DNA from: Candidatus Desulfopertinax cowenii | Lineage (GTDB): Bacteria > Bacillota > Desulfotomaculia > Desulfotomaculales > Desulforudaceae | Assembly (NCBI GenBank): GCA_001899445.1 | Contig: MPOA01000001.1 | Coordinates: 212,564 to 276,563, forward strand | Direction of reading: 5' to 3' | DNA length: 64,000 nt | In this document: piece by piece, positions 44,731 through 61,513 of the stretch | Position numbering within the stretch: the first letter of the stretch is position 1 | Layout: each line of letters begins with the position of its first letter | Program-made: the position numbers and the translations under genes | Notes under the pieces: generated by a model | What the model was told of the DNA's origin: nothing | What the model saw: the letters and a program-made list of their open reading frames with translations, nothing else | The model's database searches: none

Positions 44731-45096
44731 TTACGGGAGGAGATTTCCCGGTGGCAGAGCTAAACCAAGGCTCAATTTTAAAGCCTGGTCCACTTCACCC
44801 ATTTTTTCGGGTGAAAGATCACCGATTTTTCGCCTCAATCGAGACTTGTCAATAGTAAGCACCTGAGCAGCGTTCGCTACGCTGTCTTCATTCAACCCCC
44901 CTTCGCCGGCCTTCAGTGGAACAAGAAAGGGGTACGACCTCCGGACAGCGGTGGTAACTACAATCACTATGGTGGTAGGACTATACTTGTTGCCTATATT
45001 GTTTTGAACAACAACAGCAGGCCGAAGGCCTGCTTGTTCGCTTCCCCGGGCCGGATTGAAATTTACTAAAAAGACATCGCCGCGCTTAATTTCCAT
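44731..45096 (-). CDS. mazF: MazF/PemK-type endoribonuclease toxin
   Basis: A 121-residue toxin of the MazF family with EIKRGDVFLVNFNPARGSEQAGLRPAVVVQN at the start and the SPTTIVIVVTTAV strand. MazF toxins cut single-stranded mRNA. Start ATG at 45096 (the long frame upstream is not homologous). It overlaps the antitoxin gene by 11 bases, so the pair is coupled. Confidence 0.92.
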   Translation of the reverse strand: MEIKRGDVFLVNFNPARGSEQAGLRPAVVVQNNIGNKYSPTTIVIVVTTAVRRSYPFLVPLKAGEGGLNEDSVANAAQVLTIDKSRLRRKIGDLSPEKMGEVDQALKLSLGLALPPGNLLP

Positions 45097-45322
45097 TCCG
45101 CAGCACCTCAACCTGCGCCGGAAGAAAAAGCTCGGCGTCCGCCTGGTGGATCTCCGCCAACACCGAATAACCTTCCCGCATCTGTTTTTCAATTTCCCGC
45201 CGCTTCGCCGACTGCAGAAGCTCCGCCACAGCGCCGCTTCGAGTGGTGCTCCATTTACGGGCAAGCTGATCCAATGTCGCCAGCAAAGAATCAGGCAAAC
45301 TTATCGTTATTCTCGTAGACAT
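45086..45322 (-). CDS. RHH (CopG-like) antitoxin of the mazF pair
   Basis: A 78-residue antitoxin. The N-terminal ribbon-helix-helix (TRITISLPDSLLATLDQLARKW) binds the promoter DNA; the C-terminal half should bind and block MazF. The upstream gene in the pair, with ATG at 45322 that follows a GGGAGGTGG site. RHH antitoxins of this layout (ndoAI/MazE of Bacillus type) are common in Firmicutes. Confidence 0.88.
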   Translation of the reverse strand: MSTRITISLPDSLLATLDQLARKWSTTRSGAVAELLQSAKRREIEKQMREGYSVLAEIHQADAELFLPAQVEVLRNGN

Positions 45323-45520
45323 TGACACCACCTCCCGGCATAAGGGTATCATACCAGAAGGCATACTGTCAATCATACCTTTTCGCATCATAATTATCAC
45401 TCTGCGCGGCAACCTTCCCGGCTGTGGCGCGCCGGATCAGAGCGCCGCGCTCCTGGGAGACGACAAGAGCTGAATCATCTCCCGATCCGGGGTCCCCGAT
45501 CAGGCTCCTGGCATCTTCCT

Positions 45521-46153
45521 TCAGCTTGGCCCGGAGGCGCTGTGGAGTGGATACTCAACCATCGTGGTAAGAATCCCGCCCCAGTCGTCCACGTGACCGT
45601 CGAAACCTGCGGAAACAGCCACTAGGTCGCAGTCCGAGTGATCGGCGAAGAACCTGGCGAGCTGCTCGGTGCCGCTCAAGTGATGGTAGACCACCTGGGG
45701 CGTACGGGCGAAGATTTTATCCGTACCGTCGCCATAGTGCAGGTCGATGTCGATGATCAGGACCCTGCCGGTTTTCCCGGCTCGCCGCAGTTTTTCCACC
45801 GCCACGGCTACATTGTTGAACCAGCAGAAGCCCCAGCAGGAGGCGGGGCCGGCGTGGTGACCGGGCGGCCGGATTAGGGCAAAGGCCGGTTCGCCTTTCA
45901 CGGCCCGGTTTGCCGCTTCAATCGCCCCGCCCACGGCCAAGGCGGCAATTTTGTACAACAGGGCCTCCCTTTTCACCCGTTCTACCAGGTCGGGGTGGTG
46001 CACCAACAGCAAGTCAGCCTCGGTGGCGGGCCGGGGGGTGACGAATTCAAAGCTGACCCGTAACGCCGTGATGATGCCGTCCAATCGGCCCACCGCCGCA
46101 GCGGGGTCAGCAGCGTAGACTTCCCGGTACCATTCGTGAAAAACCACTTTCAA
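45521..46153 (-). pseudogene. Histone-deacetylase-like (acetoin utilisation/APAH family) protein, C-terminally truncated
   Basis: 210 residues of HDAC fold from a TTG at 46153. The catalytic parts are present: RPPGHHAG, then IIDIDLHYGDGTDKIF and VSAGFDGHVDDWGGILTT. The protein then ends after about ten unrelated residues (MVEYPLHSASGPS), while normal relatives continue for about 100 residues with the GGYN-type catalytic Tyr region. After the stop, another frame (from about 45545 leftward) reads open as RLRAKLKEDARSLIGDP, so a frameshift or deletion is likely. It may be a pseudogene or a shortened form; it is next to the toxin-antitoxin pair. Confidence 0.65.
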
Positions 46154-46378
46154 AGCGCAACATTCCCTTAGTTTTTTTGGCGCCGTTTGCTGGGCCGAAC
46201 CGCCGACCTGCGCAACGCTGGGATGTGCGCCCGAGGCCATTACTACGGGGGAAGCCCGGCTTCCAGAACACCCTGTTCGGTGGTCATCGGCTAGCAACAA
46301 AAATTGGTAATCTATCAGTCGGACAGAGCTCCCGGTTGTACCGTGATGGCTACCGGCAGGCTCCCCGCGTGGTCCCGG

Positions 46379-47413
46379 CTATGGAAAACGCCTGGCGGGC
46401 AGGTCCAGTTTTAGCGCCAATTCCACCAATTGGGGGTCGAATTGGGTGCCCGCGAATAGGCGCAATTGTTCCCGCACCTCAGCGGTTGTTTTCGGCGGGG
46501 CATAGGGGCGGTCCGACAGCATTGCGTCCACGGCGTCGGCCACCGCGATAATTCGGGCACCGAGCGGTACAGCCGGACCTTTGAAGCCTTGTGGATAGCC
46601 CGTACCGTCGAACCTTTCGTGGTGGTGGAGAATCAGCGGCACAATCTCCTGCAGGAACCGCACCGGGGAGATGATCTCCGCGCCGATGATCGGATGCTGT
46701 TTGATGATGTTGAACTCCTCGACGGTGAGGGACGCCTTCTTCCTGAGGATCTGCTCCGGCACGCCGATCTTGCCGATATCATGCAGGATCGCCGCCTGCT
46801 GCAGCAGTTCCATCTCCCTGACCGAGAGTCCCAGTTCCGCCCCCAGGAGCATGGCGAACATCACGACCCGCTTCTGGTGGGACTTGGTATACGAATCCTT
46901 GGCGTCCACAGCCGCCACCAGGGAACTGACTGTTTCCATAAAATGTCTTTGGATGTTCCTGCAGGCCCGCTCGATTTCCTCCACCAGAGCCTTGTTGGCC
47001 TGCTGGAGTTCCGCGAGCTTGCTTTTCATGAACCTGGAGTCGGCGCGGCGGGCCAGTCCTTTCTCAACCACTTCGATCACCGACTTGCGGTCGAAGGGCT
47101 TAATCAGGTAATCCAGGGCCCCGTGGCGCAGGGCCTTGGTCGCCGTATCCACGGAGGCGTAGGCGGTGATCATCACCACCTCCGTGTCCGGCACCCGCTT
47201 CTTCACTTTCGCCAGCAGGTCGAGGCCGTTTATGTTCGGCATCCGGATATCCAGGATCACCAGGTCAAACTCGCCGCGGGAAAGGTGATCCAGGGCCTGT
47301 TCCCCGCTGTGCGCGGTGGAAACGTCATAGTCATCCTGCAGAATCATCCTCAGGGCCTCCCTGGGGCCCAGTTCGTCGTCGACGACCAGTATTCTACCGC
47401 GTTCCCCCAACAC
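46379..47413 (-). CDS. Response regulator with HD-GYP cyclic-di-GMP phosphodiesterase domain
   Basis: About 344 residues from a GTG at 47413 (GGAGGCGAAG upstream). The receiver (residues 7-115) has VVDDE and the phosphorylation Asp55 in ILDIRMPN, with TAY and Lys in IKPFD. A helical linker leads to the HD-GYP domain: HDIGKIGVPE (residues 211-220), HHHERFDGTGYPQG (GYP at 272-274), ARIIAVADAVDAM. All metal ligands look intact, so it should degrade c-di-GMP when phosphorylated. Its start overlaps the upstream kinase stop by 20 bases. Output is enzymatic, with no DNA-binding domain. Confidence 0.92.
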   Translation of the reverse strand: MLGERGRILVVDDELGPREALRMILQDDYDVSTAHSGEQALDHLSRGEFDLVILDIRMPNINGLDLLAKVKKRVPDTEVVMITAYASVDTATKALRHGALDYLIKPFDRKSVIEVVEKGLARRADSRFMKSKLAELQQANKALVEEIERACRNIQRHFMETVSSLVAAVDAKDSYTKSHQKRVVMFAMLLGAELGLSVREMELLQQAAILHDIGKIGVPEQILRKKASLTVEEFNIIKQHPIIGAEIISPVRFLQEIVPLILHHHERFDGTGYPQGFKGPAVPLGARIIAVADAVDAMLSDRPYAPPKTTAEVREQLRLFAGTQFDPQLVELALKLDLPARRFP

Positions 47414-49406
47414 CTTCGCCTCCTTTGTCGGAGAAAATGGGCAGGCAAACCTCAAATTTCAGGCGTTTATCCTTGGTTAAAACCGCCTCTACGCGTCCCC
47501 CATGATCCTCAATGATCTTGCGGCTTACCGGAAGCTTGAGTGAAATATAGGAGTCCTGCCGCGCGCAGAGTGGATCAAACACCCTCTTCACCTCCTCGCT
47601 CCCTACCTTTGTTTTGGAGTCCCAGAAACCGATGGATACCCCCCCGCACCCGAACAGCGCCTGATCGTAAGCCGTCTGAACGTGCAGGGTCCCCTCCACT
47701 TCCATGGACTGGAAATAGTTTAACAGGTACGAAAAAGCTCTGGCTAGGAGAGTTTTGTCCGCCCGGATGTGCAGGCGCTCCCCGAAGTAAGAGGTATCCA
47801 CGGTTGTTTTTGCCCCTTTGCCCTGTTCCCGCAACAAGGACAACCCCATATCCAAGAGTTCGTGAACTTCGGCCACGGTGTACTTGTAGGTGAGAGGCGT
47901 GGAGAAAGCAATGAGCTGCTCCACCAACTCGTTCAGCCTTTTAACCTCCTGCCGGACGGTTTGGGTAAAGAAGTCGCGGAAAGAACTGTCGTGATACTTT
48001 TCCGGCAAGAGTTCCGAAAAGGTCTGAATGGCCACCATGGGGTTCTTCACTTCGTGGGCCAACTGCCCGACGAATCTGTTCAGCACGTCAAGCTGGTCTG
48101 CCCGGCACTTTTCCTGTTCAAGCTTTTTCCGCGCGGAAATATCATCAAAAATCATCACGCTCCCCAGGACCCGTTCCCCATTCACTAGCTGGTAGGTGCT
48201 GACCTCCAGGGGAACACGGCCACGCGCCAGTTCGATCTCCTCCTTATCGCAAGCCTGTCCCGTTGCCAGCGCACCGTACAACAAGTCTCCCAGCGGGCTG
48301 GGCAGATGGCGCAGATCCTTGCCCACTATTTTCTCCGGCCGCAATCCCAGGATCTCCCCGGCGCGGGCGTTAAAGGTGACCACGTTGTCATTCCCGTTGA
48401 TCGCCACCACCCCGCTGTTCATCCGCTGCAGGATGTTTTCGATGAACAGTTTCTGGTAGCGCAACTGGTGGTGCAGCTGGATGTCCCGCAAGGCCATACC
48501 GGTATTGGCGGATAAAATGTAAAGCGTCTCCAGTTCCTCTTCGTAAAAGGGTGCCCCGGTAATCTTGGGCCCCAGGTTGAGCGCGCCCATCAGCTGCCCG
48601 TGGACCGACAGCGGGATGCTGACCACAGCCTGCAGGAGCTGCATCTCCTGGAGGGCCTCGCCGGAAACAGCGCCGTTGGGACCGGGTATTTCCTCCGCCC
48701 GGAACATGCGCCCTTCCGCAATCAACCAGGAGATCAGCCCCCGGGACGGCTTGAAAACCAGCCCGGAACAGAAATCGGGGTCCAGTCCCCTTTGAGCGGA
48801 GACCAAGTAGTGACCGTAACGTTCGTTGAGCAACAAGATAGACAGCTTTCCTACGGGCACCAGTTCCGCTACGGCATCGAGGAAAAGCTCCAGGAGTTTG
48901 TCCTGATTTAAGTTGTTGGTCAACACCCTGGACAAGTCGCAGAGCACGCGTTCTTTCAGCGGGGTGGACGGGGAAGGAACACCGCCGGGCGGTACCGAGC
49001 ACCCCGGGGGCTCGGCCTTCTTCTCGGTCTTCTTTTTTAAGGACTGCAATTCAAATACCAGCTCCACCCGCTCCCAGGACCGGTCCAGCAAGCTGCGTAC
49101 CTGCCAGGAGGTAAACGGCAGGTGCAGAAAATCGTAAAAATACTTAGACATGGAATGGCTGAGGCTTGGATCGGCGGCGACCCCGAGATAAGTCAAATCA
49201 GGACGCCACCGGTACGCTTCCTCCATCCACGGCAGGACACCCGGCGTACCAATATCCACCACGACCACGCCCGAGACAATGCTCCGCAGCAGCTGCAAAC
49301 CCTTGGGGCCCATCTCGCCCTCCAGAACACTATACGTGTCCGGGATAAAATCCTTAATGGACCCGAGCGCACTTTCCTGATTGCAAATCAGGAGCACCAA
49401 TTTCAA
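47394..49406 (-). CDS. GAF-PAS histidine kinase with eroded ATP-binding domain
   Basis: 670 residues: an N-terminal receiver-like segment (residues 1-115), a GAF domain (about 155-305), a PAS domain (about 325-435) and a HisKA with QLAHEVKNPMVAIQTFSELL. In the HATPase the N-box (LLNYFQSM) keeps its Asn, but the G1 box is WDSKTKVG instead of DxGxG and the G2 box is SYISLKLPVS instead of GTGLGLAIS, so ATP binding is probably lost. It is a paralogue of the upstream kinase: the HisKA, GAF and PAS parts align (LLPEKY occurs in both). It overlaps the upstream kinase by four bases and may be a sensor partner or scaffold. Confidence 0.85.
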   Translation of the reverse strand: MKLVLLICNQESALGSIKDFIPDTYSVLEGEMGPKGLQLLRSIVSGVVVVDIGTPGVLPWMEEAYRWRPDLTYLGVAADPSLSHSMSKYFYDFLHLPFTSWQVRSLLDRSWERVELVFELQSLKKKTEKKAEPPGCSVPPGGVPSPSTPLKERVLCDLSRVLTNNLNQDKLLELFLDAVAELVPVGKLSILLLNERYGHYLVSAQRGLDPDFCSGLVFKPSRGLISWLIAEGRMFRAEEIPGPNGAVSGEALQEMQLLQAVVSIPLSVHGQLMGALNLGPKITGAPFYEEELETLYILSANTGMALRDIQLHHQLRYQKLFIENILQRMNSGVVAINGNDNVVTFNARAGEILGLRPEKIVGKDLRHLPSPLGDLLYGALATGQACDKEEIELARGRVPLEVSTYQLVNGERVLGSVMIFDDISARKKLEQEKCRADQLDVLNRFVGQLAHEVKNPMVAIQTFSELLPEKYHDSSFRDFFTQTVRQEVKRLNELVEQLIAFSTPLTYKYTVAEVHELLDMGLSLLREQGKGAKTTVDTSYFGERLHIRADKTLLARAFSYLLNYFQSMEVEGTLHVQTAYDQALFGCGGVSIGFWDSKTKVGSEEVKRVFDPLCARQDSYISLKLPVSRKIIEDHGGRVEAVLTKDKRLKFEVCLPIFSDKGGEGVGGTR

Positions 49407-51946
49407 AGCGGATCTCTCCCCCAGTCAAATTCCACTTCCCGCCCGCGGAATAGATCGCGGGACCCAGGCCACTTTTCTATCCCCGGCGGGAGGCAAATCT
49501 CAAATGCCGCTCCCTCGCCGTCACCGCTGCGGATCTGGATGGTTCCCCCGTGATCCCCAATGATCTTGTGGCTGATGCTCAGCCCGATCCCCACCCCGTC
49601 GGCCTTGGTGGTGAAAAACGGATCGAAGACTTTGTCTTTCTGATGGGCGGAAATTCCCACTCCCGTGTCCTCGATAAGGATCTTTACCTTCCCTCCCGGA
49701 GCAACAGCGCCGGCACTCTCGTCATCCGCAGCCGGAACGGACAGCACACTCACCCTCAGTTCCCCGCCCTCCGGCATGGCCTGGATACTATTCAGGCAGA
49801 TATTGAAAACCGCCTGCTTCAACTGGTTTCTATCCGCCCATACCGCGGGGACCACCGGGTCATAATGCCTGAAGACTCGAATCTTATGGGCGTCAATCTG
49901 GGGGGATAGCAGGAGAAGTATCTCGTCCATCAGGCTCGTCATATCAACCGTTTCGCAGCTCAGCGGAGAGTTCTTGGAGAAATTCAGCAGTTCGGCGAGC
50001 AGCCTGTTGATGCGCTCTATTTCCTGGGAGACTATCCGGGAAAAACTGTAGCGGAACTCGTGGTTATCATATTTTTCCGGCAGCAGTTCGGCAAACGTCT
50101 TGATCGAGACCAGGGGGTTTTTTATCTCGTGCGCCAATCCGGCCGCCACCTCCCCCAGAAACGCGAGCCGCTGGATCCAGCTTTTCTCCTGTTCCAGCTC
50201 CTTGATGCGGGTCACATCACTCAGCACCAAGATGGCGCCGCGTTCACCCGTCTCCGGCAATTCCATTACCGCCGTGCTGCAACACACAAAGCGGGTAAAG
50301 CCGTCCGCCGGCATCTCCACTTCCACGTCACTGCTTCCCCGTCCGCGCTCCATAACCTGGCCCAGCAGCGTGCACAGCTCGCGGCTGAGAACCTCTTCTA
50401 TTTTCTGGCCTATGACGGCGCTGGCAGACTGCCCGGTAAGCTTCTCCGCAGCGCCGTTAAAGGTAGTGATTCTCCCCTGGGCATCCACGGCGATCAAACC
50501 GTTGCCCATGTTTTCCAAGATGTTCTCCAAATACCGCTTGATCGTCAGCACTTCTTGATAAAGCTGCGCGTTTCTTAAACAGACTGTGACTTGGAACGCC
50601 AAAGCAGTTAACAGTTTTACGTCCTCTCTCGAATAAGGTTCCCCAGACAACTTGGGGCCCAAGCAGAAGAAACCTACCATTTCTCCTTCCATCATCATTG
50701 GGACCGCAGCCTCGGCCTGCAATCTCTGCATCTCAGTTATCAGAGATTCCCCTTCTTTTCGGTGCGTAATCACCCTTAAATCTGTTTGTAACAACACCTC
50801 ACCGTGATTCACCAGATACTTGACAAACGAATCATCATCGGTCAAAATCTGTTTATCTTGTGTTTCGATTGCAAAATTTTTATTGCCTGCAGCAGCAACC
50901 GCAACAAAACGGTTGCCTTTTTTTAGCAGAAAAACACCGCCATCCAGGTACATGTTGTTAACAATAGTACCAATCACAAATTGGAGCAGATCCCTCAAAT
51001 CCAAGAAGGAGATCATTGCTCTGCTACTTTTCAGCAAGGTTGCGTAATAATCATATGCCCCACGGTAGACGTATTTGTCAATTAACGTTTGTACAACTCC
51101 CTTTAACGACTGGAACAATGAAGCTACCAGTAATGCTACAGCACCAACCACAACGTAGAGGGGAAAATCTGCAAGCGGAATGCCTAGCCCCTCAATAAAA
51201 TAGAAAGACAGTATAACTATTCCTGACAAAACTGCCAATGCTACTACAAATGCAAGCCCTTTACGAAGGGCAAAATGAACATCCATAAGACGATATTTAA
51301 CAATGGCATAACCTATAGAAGCAACCATGATAATACTGAAAACAGGTCCAAAGTTGCGCAAATCTAGGATCGTAACGTCGAGCAAAGGGAAAAACAGGTT
51401 AGCAATACTCCCCAACAAAGTCGAAATCGTGATACCACCGACAAAATATCGTAGTTGCAAACGTAACAGGCCTCGAGCAGAACGCATCATCCTAAATAGC
51501 TTAATAATGCCGTAAGTCATTATGCCAACAAAGAACAATACATAGAGAGAAAAGAGAGAGCCATATGCCAAGTGTTTGTTATGTAAGGGCATTTCCATAT
51601 CCGCGATAATAAAGGGTGTAAAGCTCAAACCTGCCATAGCCACGCTAAGTAATAGCGTTGTGTGTAGTATCACTTTGACTTGTTTGGAAAAAACTGAAGT
51701 GCCAGCCGAAAAAGTGAATGCCAGGGCAAACACAAACCACGGAATAACCACCGCCGCAGCGTGGGAAAACCGGATCCAAAACAGTATCTGTTCGTAGTCG
51801 TGATGTACTACTACCATCAATACTGCGAAGCTCCACAGACTGAGACTAATTGTCAACCCCAAAAAGAAGCGGTTTACAACAGTCACTGGGTTCTTTGCAA
51901 ACACTAATAGTCCCAAAACAAGGTTTGTTATGGAAGTCAAAGCCAA
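49403..51946 (-). CDS. 7TM-GAF-PAS sensor histidine kinase
   Basis: 847 residues: about eight membrane helices in the first 290 residues (LTSITNLVLGLLVFAKNP at the start), a GAF domain (about 310-465), PAS (about 475-590), HisKA (GLAHEIKNPLVSIKTFAELLPEKY) and an intact HATPase (CLNSIQAMPEGG, IEDTGVGISAHQ, GVGIGLSISHKIIGDHGG). The N-terminal region resembles the 7TM type of sensor. The TTG at 51946 is a poor start; a CTG at 51970 with an AGAGGAG site nine bases upstream would give a more complete first helix. It follows the ketosynthase-like gene by 20 bases or less and is more A/T-rich than its neighbours. Confidence 0.88.
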   Translation of the reverse strand: MALTSITNLVLGLLVFAKNPVTVVNRFFLGLTISLSLWSFAVLMVVVHHDYEQILFWIRFSHAAAVVIPWFVFALAFTFSAGTSVFSKQVKVILHTTLLLSVAMAGLSFTPFIIADMEMPLHNKHLAYGSLFSLYVLFFVGIMTYGIIKLFRMMRSARGLLRLQLRYFVGGITISTLLGSIANLFFPLLDVTILDLRNFGPVFSIIMVASIGYAIVKYRLMDVHFALRKGLAFVVALAVLSGIVILSFYFIEGLGIPLADFPLYVVVGAVALLVASLFQSLKGVVQTLIDKYVYRGAYDYYATLLKSSRAMISFLDLRDLLQFVIGTIVNNMYLDGGVFLLKKGNRFVAVAAAGNKNFAIETQDKQILTDDDSFVKYLVNHGEVLLQTDLRVITHRKEGESLITEMQRLQAEAAVPMMMEGEMVGFFCLGPKLSGEPYSREDVKLLTALAFQVTVCLRNAQLYQEVLTIKRYLENILENMGNGLIAVDAQGRITTFNGAAEKLTGQSASAVIGQKIEEVLSRELCTLLGQVMERGRGSSDVEVEMPADGFTRFVCCSTAVMELPETGERGAILVLSDVTRIKELEQEKSWIQRLAFLGEVAAGLAHEIKNPLVSIKTFAELLPEKYDNHEFRYSFSRIVSQEIERINRLLAELLNFSKNSPLSCETVDMTSLMDEILLLLSPQIDAHKIRVFRHYDPVVPAVWADRNQLKQAVFNICLNSIQAMPEGGELRVSVLSVPAADDESAGAVAPGGKVKILIEDTGVGISAHQKDKVFDPFFTTKADGVGIGLSISHKIIGDHGGTIQIRSGDGEGAAFEICLPPGIEKWPGSRDLFRGREVEFDWGRDPL

Positions 51947-51966
51947 TAGCCAGATGCTCGGGTCCT

Positions 51967-53220
51967 TCAGGTGAGACCACTCCTCTTGGCAGGCGTGTAA
52001 ATAGGCCGAGTAATAATCATTGCCGCATTGCTGCCGCCGAATCCATGCAAGTTCACCATTACAGTATCCACCCGTGCAGTTCGTCCCCGACAGGGAACGT
52101 AATCCAGGTCACAACGCGGATCGGGATACTCGTAGTTGATCGTTGGGGGAACAAAACCATCCTGAATGGCCAGCACACCAGTTATGAGCTGTAACGGACC
52201 CGCAGCCGCTAACGGATTACCGATCATGGACTTTATTGAGCTCACGGGAACATTGTAAGCGTAGTCGCCGCACAGTTCCTTAATTGCTTCTGTTTCCGCC
52301 CTATCAACCATCGGGTCCCCCGGCGCGTGCGCACAAATGTAGTCAACATTAAACGGGTTCAAACCAGACCGCTGCAGGGCTTGAAACATGGAAGAGTACA
52401 TTGATAAGCGCAGGTCTCTCAATGACGAAGCGTTAGACACTCCCCAGCCGGCGATACGGGCATAAACCCTGGCCCCCCGCCGGCGGGCGCTCTCCGCCTC
52501 TTCCAGTACGAGTACGCCTGCTCCTTCAGCCAGAACTCCTCCCTCTCTGTGCAAATCAAATGGACGGCTGGCTTTCTCCGGCATATCATTGAAGCCGTTG
52601 GGTAATACTCCGGAAGCACAAAAACTAGCAAAAAGCAAGGGTGTCAAGGGAGCATCAACTCCGCCGGCAATCATGATTTCCGCTTCCCCGTTCAACAGGC
52701 ACTCAGTGGCATAAATTACGCTGTACAATCCTGACGGGCATCCGGTAGAAATAGTGGATACGTTACCCCGACAGTTTATTGCCTTCGCAATCTGACCAGC
52801 GGAAGCGTGTGGAAAGCACGACACAATTGCCGTTGGTGTCATCTCCTTTTTTTCTATGAACAATAGGTGCTCCCTCTGCACAATTCCTATGTCTGAGGTG
52901 CTTATCCCCACAGAAACGCCACACGACCGGCAAGCCAGATCATCGAGTGTCAAACCAGCATCATCCAGAGCTAACCAGGCAGCTGCCAAAGCCAATTCGC
53001 TACTCCTGGAATCGCGGTGGCCATTAAGAAGAGGGTTCTGCATCAACTTCAACGAATCCATCGGGACCTCGCCTGCAATCTGGCAGCGATATTCGGTCGG
53101 GTCAAATGCGGTGATCCGGCGAATTCCCGACTCTCCCTTTTTCAGGGCTTCCCAAAACTGTGTTTTCCCCACCCCGTTTGGGGCCACCGGACCCAAGCCG
53201 GTAATGACCACCTCAGGCAA
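51967..53220 (-). CDS. Beta-ketoacyl synthase (KAS II/FabF-like) with Cys-His-Asn active site
   Basis: 417 residues with the thiolase-like fold of KAS II: VVITGLGPVAPNGVG, then nucleophile Cys161 in STGCPSG, His298 in ICAHAPGDP, Lys330 in SSIKSMIGN and then Asn335 where FabF has the second His. So the triad is Cys-His-Asn, as in KAS III. The flanking GAAG is GPLAAAG-like and shortened. Start TTG at 53220 after GGTGGGCAGGTC; it overlaps the methyltransferase stop by 8 bases. No ACP or other fatty-acid gene is near. It probably condenses or hydrolyses some acyl-ACP or acyl-CoA in the signal operon. Region is A/T-rich for the window. Confidence 0.88.
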   Translation of the reverse strand: MPEVVITGLGPVAPNGVGKTQFWEALKKGESGIRRITAFDPTEYRCQIAGEVPMDSLKLMQNPLLNGHRDSRSSELALAAAWLALDDAGLTLDDLACRSCGVSVGISTSDIGIVQREHLLFIEKKEMTPTAIVSCFPHASAGQIAKAINCRGNVSTISTGCPSGLYSVIYATECLLNGEAEIMIAGGVDAPLTPLLFASFCASGVLPNGFNDMPEKASRPFDLHREGGVLAEGAGVLVLEEAESARRRGARVYARIAGWGVSNASSLRDLRLSMYSSMFQALQRSGLNPFNVDYICAHAPGDPMVDRAETEAIKELCGDYAYNVPVSSIKSMIGNPLAAAGPLQLITGVLAIQDGFVPPTINYEYPDPRCDLDYVPCRGRTARVDTVMVNLHGFGGSNAAMIITRPIYTPAKRSGLT

Positions 53221-53995
53221 GACCTGCCCACCTCTCCCTTTGGAAAATAGAAGCAACGTCCTCCTGGGAAGAATCTTTTGTCCCGGTTAAAAACAAGCAC
53301 TGTGCTCCGTAAACCTTTTCCACGTGACCGACTGTAAAACCGGCGTCACCTACCAAAGACTGTAATTCCTGGTCCTGGAAAAAGTGGAACGACTGTTGCT
53401 GCTGGATATAGCCGTTGATTATTAAAGACACGATTACAGCTGGGGCCAACGCCGTGATTTGACCGGCCAAGGCCACGGGCCAGAAGAAAGGGTTCCTTTT
53501 CCGCAACTCGCGAACGTGTTCGCTGAAGATGCGGCTCATTTTCGGCTGATAGGACGGAGTTACCAAAAGGAGCCTGCCGCCTTCTTTTAGTACCCGATAG
53601 ATCTCCCGCAACAAAAACCCCGGCCGATCCACCGCGTAGAGCACATTCACACATACCACCGCGTCAAACTCCCCGGCGGCGAACGGGAGAGGGTAGTTTA
53701 AATCCCCTTCCCGCAGGGTAACTCCCCGGTTTTCTTTAAGTTTCACCTGCGCCCGACTCAACATGGCCGGCGAAAAGTCAATCCCTACCGCCTGGATTTC
53801 CGATCGGGAGCGAGCAATACGGGCCAGCAGGTTCCCCGTGCCGCAACCGGCGTCTAAAATTTTCCAATTAACCGCCGGGTTAAGATTGTTGGCCACCAGG
53901 TCCAGCAATCTTCGATAGGGCAGGAATCTTAACAGTATTGAGTCGTAAACCCGCGCGTAAATCCGCCATAGCAACGGTTCAAACTTTTTGCCCAC
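53213..53995 (-). CDS. SAM-dependent class I methyltransferase
   Basis: 260 residues. SAM motifs: ILDAGCGTGNLLARIA (motif I), VGIDFSPAMLSRA (motif II) and the FDAVVCVNVLYAVD segment (motif IV). A hydrophobic stretch (FWPVALAGQITALAPAVIVSLIINGYI) near residue 170 may bind a membrane or a lipidic substrate. Start GTG at 53995 after GGAAGGGGG. It lies 19 bases after the SelA-like chimera and overlaps the ketosynthase gene. Substrate unknown; a small molecule or acyl substrate is inferred from the neighbour. Confidence 0.82.
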   Translation of the reverse strand: MGKKFEPLLWRIYARVYDSILLRFLPYRRLLDLVANNLNPAVNWKILDAGCGTGNLLARIARSRSEIQAVGIDFSPAMLSRAQVKLKENRGVTLREGDLNYPLPFAAGEFDAVVCVNVLYAVDRPGFLLREIYRVLKEGGRLLLVTPSYQPKMSRIFSEHVRELRKRNPFFWPVALAGQITALAPAVIVSLIINGYIQQQQSFHFFQDQELQSLVGDAGFTVGHVEKVYGAQCLFLTGTKDSSQEDVASIFQRERWAGLA

Positions 53996-54014
53996 GGCAA
54001 CCCCCTTCCGGAAG

Positions 54015-56606
54015 TTACATCAGGTACTCCTGGTTGAACAGGCTGACAAAAATATCCACCAGCCGGGGGTCGAACTGGGTGCCCCCGCGCCTTTTCAGTT
54101 CCGCAAGCGCCTCTTCGTGGGACAGAGGCCGACGGTAAGGTCTGGGGCTGGTCATCGCTTGGTAAGCGTCAGCAATGGCCAGAATACGGGCGTAAAGATG
54201 GATGTCTTTCCCCTTCAAGCCTTGGGGGTAACCGCTCCCGTCCCACCATTCGTGATGTTGCAGGACATAATCCGCGAGGATGGCCGTTTCGGGCGAAAAA
54301 CGGACAATGCGGCTGCCAACCTCGGAATGCCGCTTGATTTCCTCCCACTCCTTGCTGCTCAGGGTCCCGTCTTTCAAGATAATCGCCTCATCAATGCCGA
54401 CCTTGCCGACGTCGTACACTTTGGATAATAGCAACAGGCTCTTGATTCCTTCGGGAGACAGACCCAGAGTTCGCCCCAGCAGCTGCACGATGCGTTGCAA
54501 CCGCACGGCGTGACCTTCGTCCACCACGCCCTTCTTCGCGAGCAGGTTCAGGAAGAAATCAACTACCTTACCCTCAGACAACCCGCTACGCCGCAGCTTG
54601 CTTTCGTACATGTTGTCGCCGGCCCGCTTGTATACCGCCTGAATACCCTGGGACGGTTCCGTACCCGTGGCGAAACCCACGGAAAGACTCAGGGGGAGGC
54701 CTGATTTTGTCCGGTTATACTCTTCCACCGCCTTTTCTATCCGTTCGCAAACTTCGCGGGCCGTCTGTTCATCAGTCTTTGGCAAAACAACCGCAAATTC
54801 GTCGCCTCCAATCCGGGCCACCACATCCGAAATGCAGAAAGGTTTCTTGATTGTGGCGGCCGCAATCCTGAGCAACTCATCCCCCTTGTCGTGCCCAAGG
54901 GTATCGTTGATCAGTTTCAGCTCGTCCACATTGCAAACCACGAAGCTCATCGGGTAGTGGCGGTCCGTATCCAGCCGGCGCATTTCCTCTTCAAAGTAGG
55001 CCCGGTTGTAAAGGCCGGTCAACGGGTCGTGCATACTGCTGTGCTTCAGTTCTTCCTCGGTACGCTTGCGCCCCGTTACGTCATTCGCGCTAAACGTCAC
55101 CCGTCCGACCTTCCCCTGGTCGGTGAAACCGGGTGCCAGCTTTATGTCCAGCCATCTATCCTCCCCAGCGGGGCCTTCAATCCTGATTTCAATGCTGGTC
55201 TCTTCGCCGGTGTTCAGGACGGAGTTCAAACTCTCTCGAATAGCCACGGCCGCTTTAGGTCCGATCACGTCCTCTATTTTCCGGCCTAGCAAATGTTCGT
55301 TCTCCGTTCTCCATAACCCCACGCCCGCTTTGTTGGCAAAAACGAAAGCGCCTCGGTAATCAAGGACCCAGATCGGGTTGGCAACGGTGTCGAGCACCTG
55401 CATTTCCCGCTCCCGGCCACCACTCAGGGAGGCGATCAGCGAACCGAGCAGCGCTTCGTCGTCCTCTTCCGGGACCGACCTCAGATCCAGCAGGATTCCT
55501 TCCTTGCTTATCCGGGCCACCACTGGCGGATCGCCTTTGGCTAACAACGCGGCCAGTTGCCTGCCGGAAAGCCGGGCACAACTTATTTCCACCCGGAAGC
55601 TGGGTAACGTGCCCAGGCCGGGATTTCTGTCCGCGAGCAACGTTTCCCCGGCCGTCACCTGGACCCGGTAAAGCCCTCCCAGGCTTGCGTTCAGTTCGCC
55701 GGCCAATCTCTCGGCGCGCTGCCCGATGCCGGCAACCGGGGCCGCAATGGCGCGCAGCAAAGGAATGGTCTGCAGCGCTGTTTCCTGGTCCAGGTACTGT
55801 TCAAGAGTAGCCTCGAAAGCCGCCACAGCCATTTTGTCGGCCCGCACGGCCGCGGCCAAAGGTGCTCTCCGGAGCTTGGAAAGGTAACGGTGCCGGCCAA
55901 CAACAACGCCTACCGGGGGCCCGCCCAGGAACCTGTCACCGCGGAAAACGACTACGTCAAAACCGGCCGCGACAAAGTCTTGGATCCGCAGTCTTCCGGC
56001 CAACCCGAAAGGTGTCAGATCAACCAGTGTCGCGTGGCCCAGCATCTTCACGATGGAAATATCCCGTTCCCGCCCCAGCCCCGCCAGCTCAGCGTCCGCA
56101 CGCGCCCCGGCGAACGAATCATCCTCTCTGTCGCTGCTCAAGATGAACGCCACATCATCGCCCACCACGTCGCGGTAGTCTTTCGGGATAGCAGCTTTAT
56201 CTACCCTTTTCAGGCATACCCCACTGCAGCCCAGAACATTGAACAGGGAAGGAGAAAACTCGTCCGGAAACACCTCTTCCCCGCAGACGATGATCTGTTG
56301 ACTACGCCCTGCGTTCTGCACCACGGTATGCAACACCAGAAGGGACGCCGCTTGAACGTTATTCACGACCAACGCATCTTCGGCCCCGGTAAGGTTGCGA
56401 AGAAGGTCAATCACGTTTTCGCTGCCAGACGGGAGCATCTCGGAAACCAGCAGTTCTTCGGCCGTGCCCGACCACGCCGCCATCTCCACCGCTTTGACCG
56501 CCGCCTGGGCCAGAGGTGGTTGCAAACCGCCGTGCAGGATTATACCGGTGGCGTTGACCGGTGGACGCCAAAGGGGCTGTCCATTCATTTTTTCCCCGTT
56601 CATCAC
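54015..56606 (-). CDS. SelA-like pseudoenzyme fused to PAS, GGDEF and HD-GYP domains
   Basis: 863 residues. Residues 15-390 align with SelA, the PLP-dependent selenocysteine synthase: VNATGIILH, VVNNVQAASLLVLH, DLTPFGLAGR, FLGGPPVGVVVGR, VRADKMAVAAFEATL and AKGDPPVVARI-GILLDLRSVPEED. The PLP lysine site (FSGDKLLGG in SelA) is FRGDRFLGG here, so Arg225 replaces Lys; the N-terminal tRNA-binding part is missing. Then PAS (about 400-510), GGDEF (diguanylate cyclase motif intact at 600-604, no RxxD inhibitory site) and HD-GYP-like (HD replaced by YD at 731-732; GYP at 792-794 intact). It follows the 503-residue gene by a four-base overlap. The SelA part should be a ligand or protein sensor, not an enzyme. 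Confidence 0.85.
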   Translation of the reverse strand: MMNGEKMNGQPLWRPPVNATGIILHGGLQPPLAQAAVKAVEMAAWSGTAEELLVSEMLPSGSENVIDLLRNLTGAEDALVVNNVQAASLLVLHTVVQNAGRSQQIIVCGEEVFPDEFSPSLFNVLGCSGVCLKRVDKAAIPKDYRDVVGDDVAFILSSDREDDSFAGARADAELAGLGRERDISIVKMLGHATLVDLTPFGLAGRLRIQDFVAAGFDVVVFRGDRFLGGPPVGVVVGRHRYLSKLRRAPLAAAVRADKMAVAAFEATLEQYLDQETALQTIPLLRAIAAPVAGIGQRAERLAGELNASLGGLYRVQVTAGETLLADRNPGLGTLPSFRVEISCARLSGRQLAALLAKGDPPVVARISKEGILLDLRSVPEEDDEALLGSLIASLSGGREREMQVLDTVANPIWVLDYRGAFVFANKAGVGLWRTENEHLLGRKIEDVIGPKAAVAIRESLNSVLNTGEETSIEIRIEGPAGEDRWLDIKLAPGFTDQGKVGRVTFSANDVTGRKRTEEELKHSSMHDPLTGLYNRAYFEEEMRRLDTDRHYPMSFVVCNVDELKLINDTLGHDKGDELLRIAAATIKKPFCISDVVARIGGDEFAVVLPKTDEQTAREVCERIEKAVEEYNRTKSGLPLSLSVGFATGTEPSQGIQAVYKRAGDNMYESKLRRSGLSEGKVVDFFLNLLAKKGVVDEGHAVRLQRIVQLLGRTLGLSPEGIKSLLLLSKVYDVGKVGIDEAIILKDGTLSSKEWEEIKRHSEVGSRIVRFSPETAILADYVLQHHEWWDGSGYPQGLKGKDIHLYARILAIADAYQAMTSPRPYRRPLSHEEALAELKRRGGTQFDPRLVDIFVSLFNQEYLM

Positions 56607-58114
56607 CCAGCCTCCGGATCTTTCTTCTCCAACCGGTCAAAGAAAGTATCCCGGATAAACTTCTTTTCCTGTGGGGTCAGGATTCCGTCGTCACCCCACA
56701 GCCGATCGAGTTCGGCGGACTCAGCCGCAAGCATCTCCGCAAATCTGCCTTTTTCCACTGCCCCCTCCCGCTGTTCCGCCGGCAGATCGTCCAGGAGCTC
56801 CACCAACGCTTTTCCCAGGCGCTCGATGGCCTCCGCTGGGGGCATCCAGAACGGCTCAAGCTTCAACTGGGGATGTTTGCCACACTCCCGGGCCGCCAAT
56901 TCCTCCGCCCCCGGGGCTGTTTTCCGGTCCCGCCGCAGGAACTCTTCCAGTAGGGCCAGGGCGTGACCGCACAGGCTCACCCCCGCAGCCACCAGGGGAT
57001 GATCCGGATACTGCCGAAGTACTCCGTCGAGATCGTCCCTGGCCGCCTGCAGAAACTTGCGCAGCTCATCGTGCCCGGGGGCGGCCGCTTGTTTCCGGGC
57101 CTCTGTTAGGCGCGCTTGAAGCCCCAGCCACCGCTCCACCAGGTCCAGTACTTCCCTCAGGCGGGCCAAGACCTGCCAGGACCCCAAAATATGAAAGATA
57201 TCCAGCTGCGCGTCCATCTCCTGCATCCGGCGATAAAGCCGCGCAATTTCACTTTTCAGTTCATCCTCGTCGCGCAGCCGGTTGACCAGGCTGCGGATCT
57301 CGTCCGCGGCCGCGGTGTCCTTTTCGATGACGGGGCGGAGCAAACGCTGGAGCAATTCACCCTCTTTCTGCATTGTTTTCCAGAGTTTGGCGGCCAGCGG
57401 GGCAACCATGTACAGCTTTCGGTTGTGCCGTTGCCAACTCCGCGCCTCAGCGGATAGTGCTTCCAGTTCCTTTTCCCAGCCGGGATCCGCCTGTCCCCGG
57501 CCCGCCAGAAGGTCACCTACCGCCGCGATCCCCGGGGGCAGGTCGTCCAGCCCGGCCAACGCCTCCGGGGCACCGCTTCCGGGCGCTGCCAGCGCCGGCC
57601 GCAGCAACGCCGCGACCATCAGGAGATTCAGGGCCAACCTGCCAGCCTCACCAGGCTGACCCGCGCGCACCTCCCTGAAATCGGGGTGCCGATAGGCGTG
57701 GGCAAGCCACCGCGCAGCCGGACCGCCATCCCCTTCGATTATGTCGGCCAGTTCCACCGCTTTGATCAATACGGGCGGCGCCGGGGGAGCCCCGAACTTC
57801 TGCTTGTGGTAACAGGCCAACCAGTAAGCCGGCTCCAACCGCCGTTCCCTAAGGAGAGCACAGATCAATCCAGACAGCCGTACCCGTGCCGCCTGCGCTT
57901 CTATCCCGTCCGGCGCCTGTTCCAGCTCTTGTTCCAGAAAATCGAAGCTTCGTACCGCTTCCGACAGCTCCTCTATCAAGGTAGGGTCCGGAGGGCAGCC
58001 AGGGTTCCTGAGCCTCGCCTCTACGGTCGCCAGTTTCCGCCCCAATTGGTCAAAGCTGTTTTTAAGTTCCGCCAGGCGCCGTTGCAGTTCAGCCAACTGC
58101 TTACTGGGGTCCAT
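56603..58114 (-). CDS. Helical protein of unknown family, partner of the SelA-like chimera
   Basis: 503 residues, nearly all predicted helix, rich in Leu, Ala, Arg and Glu. Coiled-coil stretches include residues 1-50 (LAELQRRLAELKNSF) and 300-360. No known domain is recognised, and there is no signal peptide or membrane helix. The stop overlaps the start of the SelA-like chimera by four bases (ATGA), so it is coupled to it. It is the first gene of the seven-gene run, with 280 bases of non-coding DNA before the 3D-domain gene. Confidence 0.55.
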   Translation of the reverse strand: MDPSKQLAELQRRLAELKNSFDQLGRKLATVEARLRNPGCPPDPTLIEELSEAVRSFDFLEQELEQAPDGIEAQAARVRLSGLICALLRERRLEPAYWLACYHKQKFGAPPAPPVLIKAVELADIIEGDGGPAARWLAHAYRHPDFREVRAGQPGEAGRLALNLLMVAALLRPALAAPGSGAPEALAGLDDLPPGIAAVGDLLAGRGQADPGWEKELEALSAEARSWQRHNRKLYMVAPLAAKLWKTMQKEGELLQRLLRPVIEKDTAAADEIRSLVNRLRDEDELKSEIARLYRRMQEMDAQLDIFHILGSWQVLARLREVLDLVERWLGLQARLTEARKQAAAPGHDELRKFLQAARDDLDGVLRQYPDHPLVAAGVSLCGHALALLEEFLRRDRKTAPGAEELAARECGKHPQLKLEPFWMPPAEAIERLGKALVELLDDLPAEQREGAVEKGRFAEMLAAESAELDRLWGDDGILTPQEKKFIRDTFFDRLEKKDPEAG

Positions 58115-59431: not shown

Positions 59432-61513
59432 ATGCTGAACGGGGCCACAACTTTGGGATGGCGGGCGTTCCAGGGGTCTCTCGCGCGGATACTGCAGTTG
59501 ACCATCGTGGTGATCACCCCGCAGGGTGGATCGTTGGACGTGTACCACGCGCCAGGTGCGCCTCTGTCCGAGTTCGGCCGCTATCCGGCTCTGTCCGGTG
59601 CTTACAAGCAGTTTTTCCACGGTCTTTCCCAGTTGGACCGGCACACCGAGGAGATCCGCGTACTCACCGATCCTCTTGACTTGCCGGTAGCCATCGTCCC
59701 TCTGGACAACACCCTGTTTCTCGCGCTGGTTGGCGGCCTGGACAAACGGAATCCGGGGTGCAGGGCCGACTTTCAGGCCCGGCTCAAAGCCTACGGAGTA
59801 CGGGAAACCGATAGGGTGTGGGCGTTAATCCCCGTTCTTACCCCGGATGAACTTAAGAAAAAAGCCGCCAACGTTCAGCGGCTGTATACCCAGTTGCTGC
59901 GCTCCCGGGCAAAAACCACCGCCTCCGGATCACATTCGGCCCTCCCGGTAACGCTGGAAGCGATCAACACGCTGCTGGTTGATCTCCTCGATTCCGAACA
60001 CTTCGACCTGTACCTCGTCTTGGACCTGGTAGTCTGTACCCTCATCATTCTTTTTCAGGCCGAAGGAGCTTGGGTTTTCACCTATCATTATGATGCTCAA
60101 ACGACCACCGTTTACCGGGGCGGGCGTAAGCAGTTTCTGTTGGAACTCAAACGGGGTTGGGAAGCAGCGGTCAGCGGGCGACAGGATCCGGTAGCGGCCG
60201 TGGAACGGTGGAGTCGGATAATAGCGGATATCGCGCCGGAACTCCGGCTCCAGACCACGTCCTTCCAGCGGAACGACTGGGGAGCCCTTCTGGGGGTGAT
60301 CAACCCCGAGGATGAAGGGAACCTTGCGCCTGCGCTTGCCGCCTTTGCCGAACAGGTCGCCGTGGCGATGGAAGCAGCGGCACTTTGCGAATATGCGCAA
60401 CGGCGGATGGGCTCCCTTTTTAATTTCATTCGCCACGGAATCATCATTATGAACCACGACGGCAAAGCAATGGTGGCCAACCAGGCGGCAAAAAACGTTT
60501 TCGCCGCCACGGGAGCAGCTTTGCCGTTGGGTCAACCGCTTGAAGAGCACGGTTTTAGCCGGTCCGTGAAGCTGGCCGCTTGCCGCGTCGCCGCCACTGG
60601 TGAATCTTACTTCCGGCAGCAGGTAACCATCGGGCATGGTGATGCGGAACTTCACCTGATCTGGGACATCGCCCCCCTGAGGCGGGATGACGGGGTTATC
60701 GTCGGCGCGGTGCTGATCCTGGAGGATGTTACCGAAACCGTGCATCTCCACCGCCGCATGCAGGAATGGGAGAAACTGGCTACCGCCGGCCAGGTAGCCG
60801 TGGGCCTGACGCACGAAATCCGCAACCCACTGGCGGCCGCAGTCGGTGCTATTCAGCTTTTTGACCTGGTGCATGATGAAACGAAGCGCCAGGAGATACT
60901 GGCCAAGCTGCGGATCGAGCTAACCCGGATGAATAAGATTCTGACCAGTTTTTTACGCTTTGCCAAACCCGGCGCGAAGAAAAACCTGCAGTCAATAGAT
61001 TTTACCCAGGTGATCGAAGATCTTCGATTTTTGCTGCAGAGCGAAGCCAATCTGCACGATGTTGACCTGATAATCCAGGAAGCACCGCAGAACTTCCCCA
61101 AGGTACGGGTCGACACGGATAACCTGAAACAAGTGTTTATCAATATCGCCAAAAATGCCATTGAAGCGATGACGGAAAACGGGCGGCTCGAAATCTCCAT
61201 GGATTGGGATGCGGAACGAGTATGGGTCAGCTTCAAGGACAATGGCCCGGGAATCCCCAAGGAAAACCTACAGCGCGTTCTGCAACCGTTTTTCACGACG
61301 AAACCGGGAGGCACCGGCTTGGGCCTGTGGATCTCGTCTACCATCATCCAGCAAATGGGCGGCGAGCTGCGCATGGAAAGCGAATTGGGCCGGGGTACCA
61401 CGGTACACATTATTCTGCCGATCAAACCGGATCTGGACCAAGACGGAGTTTTCAAGGACAACGCCCAAACTGATGAGCAGATCTTAATCGCTAAAGGGGG
61501 AAGGTGCAAATGA
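59432..61513 (+). CDS. Soluble sensor histidine kinase with a novel N-terminal domain, PAS and GAF-like region
   Basis: 693 residues, no membrane helix. Residues 1-165 are an N-terminal domain (TIVVITPQGGSLDVYH ... VAIVPLDNTLFLALVGGLD) that resembles the general shape of a PocR-like ligand domain, but lacks its Cys residues. A GAF-like region (200-325), a PAS domain (330-440), HisKA with GLTHEIRNPLAAAVG and an intact HATPase (KNAIEAMTENG, FKDNGPGIP, GGTGLGLWIS) follow. It overlaps the Spo0F-like gene by ATGA, so its phosphate receiver is evident. Confidence 0.9.
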   Translation: MLNGATTLGWRAFQGSLARILQLTIVVITPQGGSLDVYHAPGAPLSEFGRYPALSGAYKQFFHGLSQLDRHTEEIRVLTDPLDLPVAIVPLDNTLFLALVGGLDKRNPGCRADFQARLKAYGVRETDRVWALIPVLTPDELKKKAANVQRLYTQLLRSRAKTTASGSHSALPVTLEAINTLLVDLLDSEHFDLYLVLDLVVCTLIILFQAEGAWVFTYHYDAQTTTVYRGGRKQFLLELKRGWEAAVSGRQDPVAAVERWSRIIADIAPELRLQTTSFQRNDWGALLGVINPEDEGNLAPALAAFAEQVAVAMEAAALCEYAQRRMGSLFNFIRHGIIIMNHDGKAMVANQAAKNVFAATGAALPLGQPLEEHGFSRSVKLAACRVAATGESYFRQQVTIGHGDAELHLIWDIAPLRRDDGVIVGAVLILEDVTETVHLHRRMQEWEKLATAGQVAVGLTHEIRNPLAAAVGAIQLFDLVHDETKRQEILAKLRIELTRMNKILTSFLRFAKPGAKKNLQSIDFTQVIEDLRFLLQSEANLHDVDLIIQEAPQNFPKVRVDTDNLKQVFINIAKNAIEAMTENGRLEISMDWDAERVWVSFKDNGPGIPKENLQRVLQPFFTTKPGGTGLGLWISSTIIQQMGGELRMESELGRGTTVHIILPIKPDLDQDGVFKDNAQTDEQILIAKGGRCK

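Follow-up and report, generated by a model that had tools for sequence, protein, structure and literature searches.

A four-gene ketosynthase-kinase core with a silent-site divergence peak: a possible chemical signalling operon in Candidatus Desulfopertinax cowenii and its relatives

In the Rpf/DSF system of Xanthomonas (RpfF-RpfC-RpfG), the signal enzyme RpfF belongs to the crotonases and the kinase RpfC is of the hybrid type. Other systems that combine related parts are comQXP, a variable pherotype locus where the enzyme and the 5' half of the kinase are poorly conserved and the kinase core and regulator are conserved (PMC6334282); phcBSRQ of Ralstonia, which holds a methyltransferase and kinases in one operon and in which PhcQ is a receiver without an output domain (PMC8578825); FasB-FasC of group A Streptococcus, in which one partner has a dispensable kinase domain but a needed histidine and a mixed dimer has been proposed (PMC12675982); and PpyS, the photopyrone synthase of Photorhabdus, a ketosynthase with a C-H-N triad and a quorum signal as its product (PMC4578411). 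Here we analyse a stretch of 64,000 nucleotides of Candidatus Desulfopertinax cowenii (contig MPOA01000001.1), called the window, in which seven minus-strand genes at 46379-58114, numbered from 1 (upstream) to 7 (downstream), encode a helical protein, a SelA-GGDEF-HD chimera, a methyltransferase (MT, gene 3), a ketosynthase (KS, gene 4), a seven-transmembrane (7TM) kinase, a pseudo-kinase and a REC-HD-GYP response regulator. Four of these genes form a constant core, silent sites diverge most at MT and KS, and we consider it slightly short of an even chance (roughly 0.45) that the operon is a self-contained chemical signalling system with exchangeable specificity.

The locus resembles each of the described systems in part. 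Like ComQXPA of Bacillus subtilis, it places a signal-making enzyme (a role proposed here for KS) beside the sensor kinase and shows the same split between a variable synthase and sensor half and a conserved kinase core and regulator, a split that is less clear for the downstream genes in one genome pair (G004-G007, below). However, the signal ComX is a peptide and the regulator ComA a DNA-binding protein, whereas the window operon contains no gene for a peptide signal, employs a ketosynthase and ends in an HD-GYP output; the likeness is one of pattern. With Rpf/DSF it would share an enzyme for an acyl-type signal, again as proposed here, and it does share a membrane kinase and a REC-HD-GYP output, but its enzyme is a ketosynthase, its kinase is of the plain 7TM kind with the pseudo-kinase encoded separately, and no crotonase domain of the RpfF type was found among the seven proteins. 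The Phc operon also unites a methyltransferase, a kinase and a second kinase-like protein but has neither a ketosynthase nor an HD-GYP protein. FasBCA likewise pairs kinase-like proteins, two in number, and the kinase domain of one of them is dispensable although its histidine is required; both Fas proteins carry transmembrane segments and FasA is a DNA-binding regulator, whereas gene 6 of the window has no predicted transmembrane domain and contains a pseudo-receiver, a GAF and a PAS domain. PpyS has the C-H-N triad in common with KS but is derived from FabH and read by a LuxR solo, whereas the window KS is FabF-derived and accompanied by a kinase. No paper describing the operon was found in a full-text literature search whose coverage leaves out most subscription journals.

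The window genome (G000; 1.78 Mb in 6 contigs) was compared with G001, of the same genus; G002, G004 and G005, of the same family, G004 being a single contig of 2,349,476 bases; the congeneric pair G006-G007; G157, from a different family of the same phylum; Dethiobacter sp. SURF_39 (L053), a metagenome-assembled genome (MAG); and L052, a 3.1 kb contig labelled Spirochaetaceae. A core of four genes in the order KS, 7TM kinase, pseudo-kinase and REC-HD-GYP regulator is constant in eight genomes and runs unbroken in G001, G004, G006, G007, SURF_39 and G157. MT stands ahead of it in G004, G006 and G007, and in G157, whose contig stops within the regulator, the same five genes are present. In G001 the core is preceded by a frame-broken gene 1 and by a remnant of the chimera that lacks SelA and PAS, and in SURF_39 by gene 1 and the chimera, with no MT in either genome. 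G003 has MT, KS and the start of the kinase on one contig and the kinase end, pseudo-kinase and regulator on another; its kinase gene is split between the dimerisation and ATPase parts by an IS21-like element (L152 9600-11465 and L133 1-306), a label that is our interpretation of the element's translation. What lies upstream of KS is MT (in six of the eight core-bearing genomes), the cassette of gene 1 and chimera, intact or decayed (in three of the eight), or both, and all seven genes intact were seen in the window genome alone. The chimera and KS only are found on the contig of L052, and this pair is either a transfer outside the phylum or a misbinned contig. The sequence-only reading had proposed a seven-gene system: the recurrence of the order in relatives upholds a conserved unit and rules out chance neighbours, whereas one fixed system of seven genes is not supported, the constant core being of only four with MT and the gene 1-chimera cassette variable in presence.

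The core has a narrow distribution. Within the class, 6 of 113 genomes carry the pseudo-kinase, each of them a member of the window's family; it was also found in 6 of 120 relatives and, with scoring limited to the best 3 candidates of each genome, in 4 of 398 genomes sampled from the phylum. Profile searching for KS found true orthologues (684-708 bits; next match 385 bits) in the identical 4 of those 398 genomes, and KS and pseudo-kinase are both absent from G002 and G005. A plasmid-borne operon was rejected, no plasmid record covering 80% of gene 5, and a search of viral contigs for KS led nowhere.

In order to follow the divergence of the locus, orthologous genes were compared across 60-70 kb by the NG86 method in three genome pairs, which share genomes and are not independent. 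Between G006 and G007 (47 gene pairs, within contigs of 295 and 122 kb) the 42 genes outside the operon have a median silent-site divergence (dS) of 0.097 and a maximum of 0.25, and the genes immediately flanking the operon on both sides have a dS of 0.12; inside it MT is saturated (proportion of silent differences, pS, 0.85) and dS reaches 1.59 for KS, 0.28 for the kinase (from 727 codons, runs of N excluded), 0.59 for the pseudo-kinase and 0.46 for the regulator. Between G006 and G004 (26 pairs) the 21 outside genes have a median of 0.42 and a maximum of 0.57, and within the operon MT is again saturated, with 2.36 for KS, 0.90 for the kinase, 0.76 for the pseudo-kinase and 0.74 for the regulator. 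All five operon genes thereby exceed every one of the 42 and of the 21 neighbours. Between G004 and G007 (21 pairs, 16 of them outside, maximum 0.58) MT (0.65), KS (2.81) and the kinase (0.80) lie above all 16 neighbours. KS is strongly raised in the three comparisons, and the divergence peaks at MT-KS. In the same genomes the housekeeping FabF shows no such variability (dS 0.11, G006-G007). Within gene 5 the 7TM part has a dS of 1.66 between G004 and G006 versus 0.64-0.81 in the other parts, and at the fourfold sites of gene 6 the front is near background and the dead ATPase part is raised (2-16% versus 48-60% differences in G006-G007); mosaic silent divergence is also seen inside gene 7. Since silent sites are raised, the pattern argues for an exchange of old alleles and not merely for relaxed constraint, and fast evolution of KS through relaxed constraint alone is ruled out. 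The low 7TM identity of G007 was discarded as a sign of variability, the G007 locus containing runs of N.

Distances were then correlated over 7 genomes (21 pairs), G007 being left out on account of its runs of N. The KS distance follows that of the gene 5 7TM domain (r 0.81, or 0.80 as a partial correlation controlling for the remaining domains; p 0.0 as printed by a permutation test over 1,008 sampled relabellings) and that of its GAF domain (r 0.64), but not those of the gene 5 PAS, of four gene 6 domains (pseudo-receiver, GAF, PAS and dead ATPase) or of the gene 7 receiver (r 0.06-0.23). The boundary of this co-divergence falls within gene 5, between GAF and PAS, and sets off a sensor half at approximately residues 1-457. 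In trees the window KS groups with that of G157 (99/98) and monophyly of the family is rejected (p-AU 0.0096); the 7TM tree also places the window copy outside the family, and the trees of gene 6 (98/97) and of the PAS-DHp-ATPase part of gene 5 (90/91) support the family. Because silent sites are hypervariable and KS and sensor diverge together, the idea of a synthase-sensor pair gains indirect support.

All seven open reading frames exist as the sequence-only reading had listed them, and its domain assignments match a Pfam/NCBIfam search (for gene 2, SelA at 7.8e-59, PAS_4, GGDEF and HD_5). Its spacing stands for two 4-base overlaps and for gaps of 19 and 20 bases; the longest frames overlap by 44 (MT/KS) and 62 (genes 6/7) bases, and the 8- and 20-base overlaps it gave require internal starts near 53220 and 47413, the former agreeing with the orthologue starts. 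In G006 the longest MT frame has 71 bases ahead of it; spacing this tight leaves almost no room for a signal peptide hidden in the operon, and this candidate was rejected.

KS (51967..53256, 429 residues, likely start ~53220) carries the ketoacyl-synt N and C domains and forms a fast-diverging clade separate from FabF (support 100/100). Residues C173, H310, N347 and K342 are invariant in its eight copies, and the third triad place is asparagine in all eight versus histidine (C-H-H) in the 14 FabF sequences read, in keeping with the C-H-N triad first proposed. Relative to FabF (KAS II), KS retains the fold, the cysteine, the first histidine and the lysine but has asparagine for the second histidine, HAPG for HGTST and no NSFGFGG loop; it scores 346.6 bits, below the TIGR03150 cut-off of 493.75. 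Its top PDB match is the actinorhodin KS-alpha (1tqy, 275 bits), with FabF at 266 bits. MT (53213..53995, 260 residues; Methyltransf_11, 3.9e-23) shows general similarity to methyltransferases dependent on S-adenosylmethionine only, with a C-terminal stretch that is hydrophobic by eye.

Gene 5 (49403..51946, 847 residues) is a HisKA_7TM-GAF-PAS-HisKA-HATPase histidine kinase with intact catalytic motifs. Gene 6 (47394..49406, 670 residues) combines a receiver-like N-terminus, GAF, PAS and HisKA with a sub-threshold, dead HATPase; all eight copies retain the phospho-acceptor histidine but have degenerate N, G1 and G2 boxes, the ATP-binding motifs of a canonical histidine kinase, which agrees with the degenerate kinase described earlier. 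Residues 1-140 adopt a receiver fold in the structure model (predicted local distance difference test, pLDDT, 86; best match 1qkk, E 1.5e-6), and we call this part a pseudo-receiver because it lacks the acidic pair and the lysine found in the gene 7 receiver. Gene 7 (46379..47455, 358 residues, likely start ~47413; HD_5) has its receiver aspartate, HD and GYP motifs intact, as the sequence-only reading had it, and HDIGK and GYP are kept in the six alignable copies; these are the motifs of an HD-GYP phosphodiesterase.

The signalling reading builds on the gene order, motifs and variability, and its chemistry, binding, dimerisation and phosphate flow would run as follows. Drawing on the fatty-acid pool, KS would condense or transfer acyl chains, and the product, capped by MT in the genomes that have it, would be a diffusible acyl signal of lineage-specific structure. 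The 7TM-GAF part of gene 5 would sense this signal, the 7TM domain binding it, and gene 5 would phosphorylate the conserved histidine of gene 6 in a mixed dimer of the kind suggested for FasB-FasC, gene 6 acting as a phosphate carrier to which its GAF and PAS may contribute a second input. The phosphate would then reach the gene 7 receiver, and the HD-GYP domain of that protein would degrade cyclic di-GMP (c-di-GMP). The cassette of gene 1 and chimera would be an accessory modulator that is decaying in the window's genus.

Several observations weigh against this reading. Between G004 and G007 the pseudo-kinase (dS 0.42) and the regulator (0.53) are not raised and stay within background, and the second silent peak, at the dead ATPase part of gene 6, is not predicted by the simple model. 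The ratio of amino acid-changing to silent divergence (dN/dS) of KS is low (~0.15) and gives no hint of positive selection. For the 7TM domain the test does not reject monophyly of the family (p-AU 0.49), and the shared history of KS and the 7TM half could come from linkage alone, as they lie side by side. MT, being absent from G001 and SURF_39, cannot be essential to the signal; G003, by its kinase-gene insertion, may be a genome that could make but not sense it; and the KS product, its export route and the response are all hypothetical.

Among the alternatives the one that survives best, although we hold it to be unlikely, is a control of lipids inside the cell, in which KS and MT would act on a membrane lipid, by making it or by modifying it, while the 7TM kinase would sense the membrane state or the acyl pool and the HD-GYP protein would adjust c-di-GMP, with no intercellular signal and with the variability reflecting adaptation of lipids to habitat. 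A FabF-type enzyme alongside a membrane sensor, the hydrophobic end of MT and the occurrence of the operon in few lineages fit such a role, but the housekeeping FabF is not variable and lipid control does not readily explain why only the sensor half of gene 5 shares the history of KS. Quite unlikely, in our estimate, is an ordinary sensory operon with a duplicated FabF, whose divergence would have arisen incidentally, from a small number of horizontal replacements and from MAG assembly mosaics, without selection for specificity: the mosaic divergence within genes 6 and 7, the G003 insertion and the low dN/dS of KS speak for it, but the flanking genes on both sides show no excess within their long contigs, KS is raised in every comparison, and genomes either have both KS and gene 6 or have neither. 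A secondary metabolite with autoregulation, in which the product of KS and MT would be protective or toxic, the kinases and HD-GYP protein would tune its production or the response, and arms races would generate the variability, is improbable, for although antagonistic compounds are likewise expected to vary and the actinorhodin enzyme is the top PDB match to KS, that match is barely ahead of FabF and the block contains one KS, at most one MT and no carrier protein, exporter or immunity gene.

Returning to the signalling reading, the operon would be a variant of synthase-kinase-regulator signalling, with a less than even chance of being a new class altogether. The bolder form of this idea, which we regard as doubtful, is a new pherotype class of Gram-positive-type anaerobes that unites an acyl signal, different in structure from one close lineage to another and made by a FabF-derived C-H-N KS with or without MT, a co-exchanged 7TM-GAF sensor, an obligate pseudo-kinase and a c-di-GMP phosphodiesterase, with alleles swapped across families as in comQXP. 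If the signalling reading is true, subsurface anaerobes have lineage-specific chemical communication written by an enzyme and not by a peptide gene; a genome signature, the silent-divergence peak at an enzyme and the sensor half of the next kinase, would find signal-receptor pairs without known chemistry; and the locus would offer a tractable pseudo-kinase relay together with ketosynthase alleles whose products and sensors are pairwise testable.

The two upstream genes form the variable cassette. Gene 1 (56603..58114, 503 residues) is a helical protein that accompanies the chimera; it reached the cut-off of no Pfam, NCBIfam or PADLOC family, PADLOC giving nothing strong, and its structure model is uninformative (pLDDT 42). 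A homologue stands ahead of the chimera in SURF_39 (46% identity). It was found in 2 of 120 relatives and in 3 of the 398 phylum genomes, the third match being weak and lying within a 1932-residue AAA protein of G430 (L186 8008-13803), a segment of which weakly resembles gene 1 (profile E 5.9e-13) and near which there is an apparent CRISPR array. In G001 (L132 7528-10021) gene 1, by frameshifts, and the chimera, by loss of SelA and PAS, have decayed jointly.

The chimera, gene 2 (54015..56606, 863 residues), has a SelA-like - PAS - GGDEF - HD-GYP architecture and a full-length orthologue in SURF_39 (51%). It is without the N-terminal tRNA-binding part of SelA, the TIGR00474 match beginning at position 71 of 455, and the lysine that binds pyridoxal phosphate in SelA is arginine in the window copy, cysteine in L052 and lysine in SURF_39, versus lysine in all 30 control SelA read (30 of 32 loci were readable by the motif script); the window chimera thus lacks both of these SelA features. 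The SelA pseudoenzyme of the sequence-only reading is therefore right for the window copy, where the catalytic lysine is lost, but not for the family, the Dethiobacter copy retaining it. The HD motif is YD in the four chimeras, with histidine in 37 of 38 control loci. A GGDEF motif is present in the window chimera, but the first aspartate of the metal motif, whose role is known from PleD, is asparagine in the window copy only; the orthologues keep aspartate, as do all 66 control loci that the motif script could read out of 78. The inhibitory RxxD site, present in 57 of those 66 loci, is CISD in the window chimera and hence lost. An increase of c-di-GMP by the chimera, as suggested earlier, is not supported, given these changes at HD, GGDEF and RxxD, and an active diguanylate cyclase was rejected for the window copy on the site losses relative to controls. 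To judge from its motifs the window chimera looks catalytically dead at three sites (SelA, GGDEF and HD), and a role as a binding platform is more likely for it than one as an enzyme. The window genome retains a normal SelA (a 483-residue frame with the lysine) and a tRNA-Sec match of 75 bits. The SelA part was matched in 134 of 150 relatives, including two open frames of 616 and 637 residues; an intact chimera was recognised only in the window genome, and two long frames elsewhere had no GGDEF in the tails read. A SelA-domain tree unites three chimeras (99) but on very long branches, and was unused for dating or placing their origin.

Around the operon, the downstream gene at 45521-46300 (minus strand) encodes a histone-deacetylase-like protein of 259 residues that covers only positions 16-170 of the 298-position Pfam model and is probably shortened or decayed. 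At 44731-45412, on the same strand, a PemK/MazF-type toxin gene is preceded by a small partner gene, ribbon-helix-helix-like by eye, and the two are likely a type II toxin-antitoxin pair. Upstream of the operon, past a 3D-domain gene, another PAS histidine kinase is encoded divergently at 59432-61513 (plus strand), and the pair of 3D-domain gene and divergent PAS kinase is also found in G001 (56% identity).

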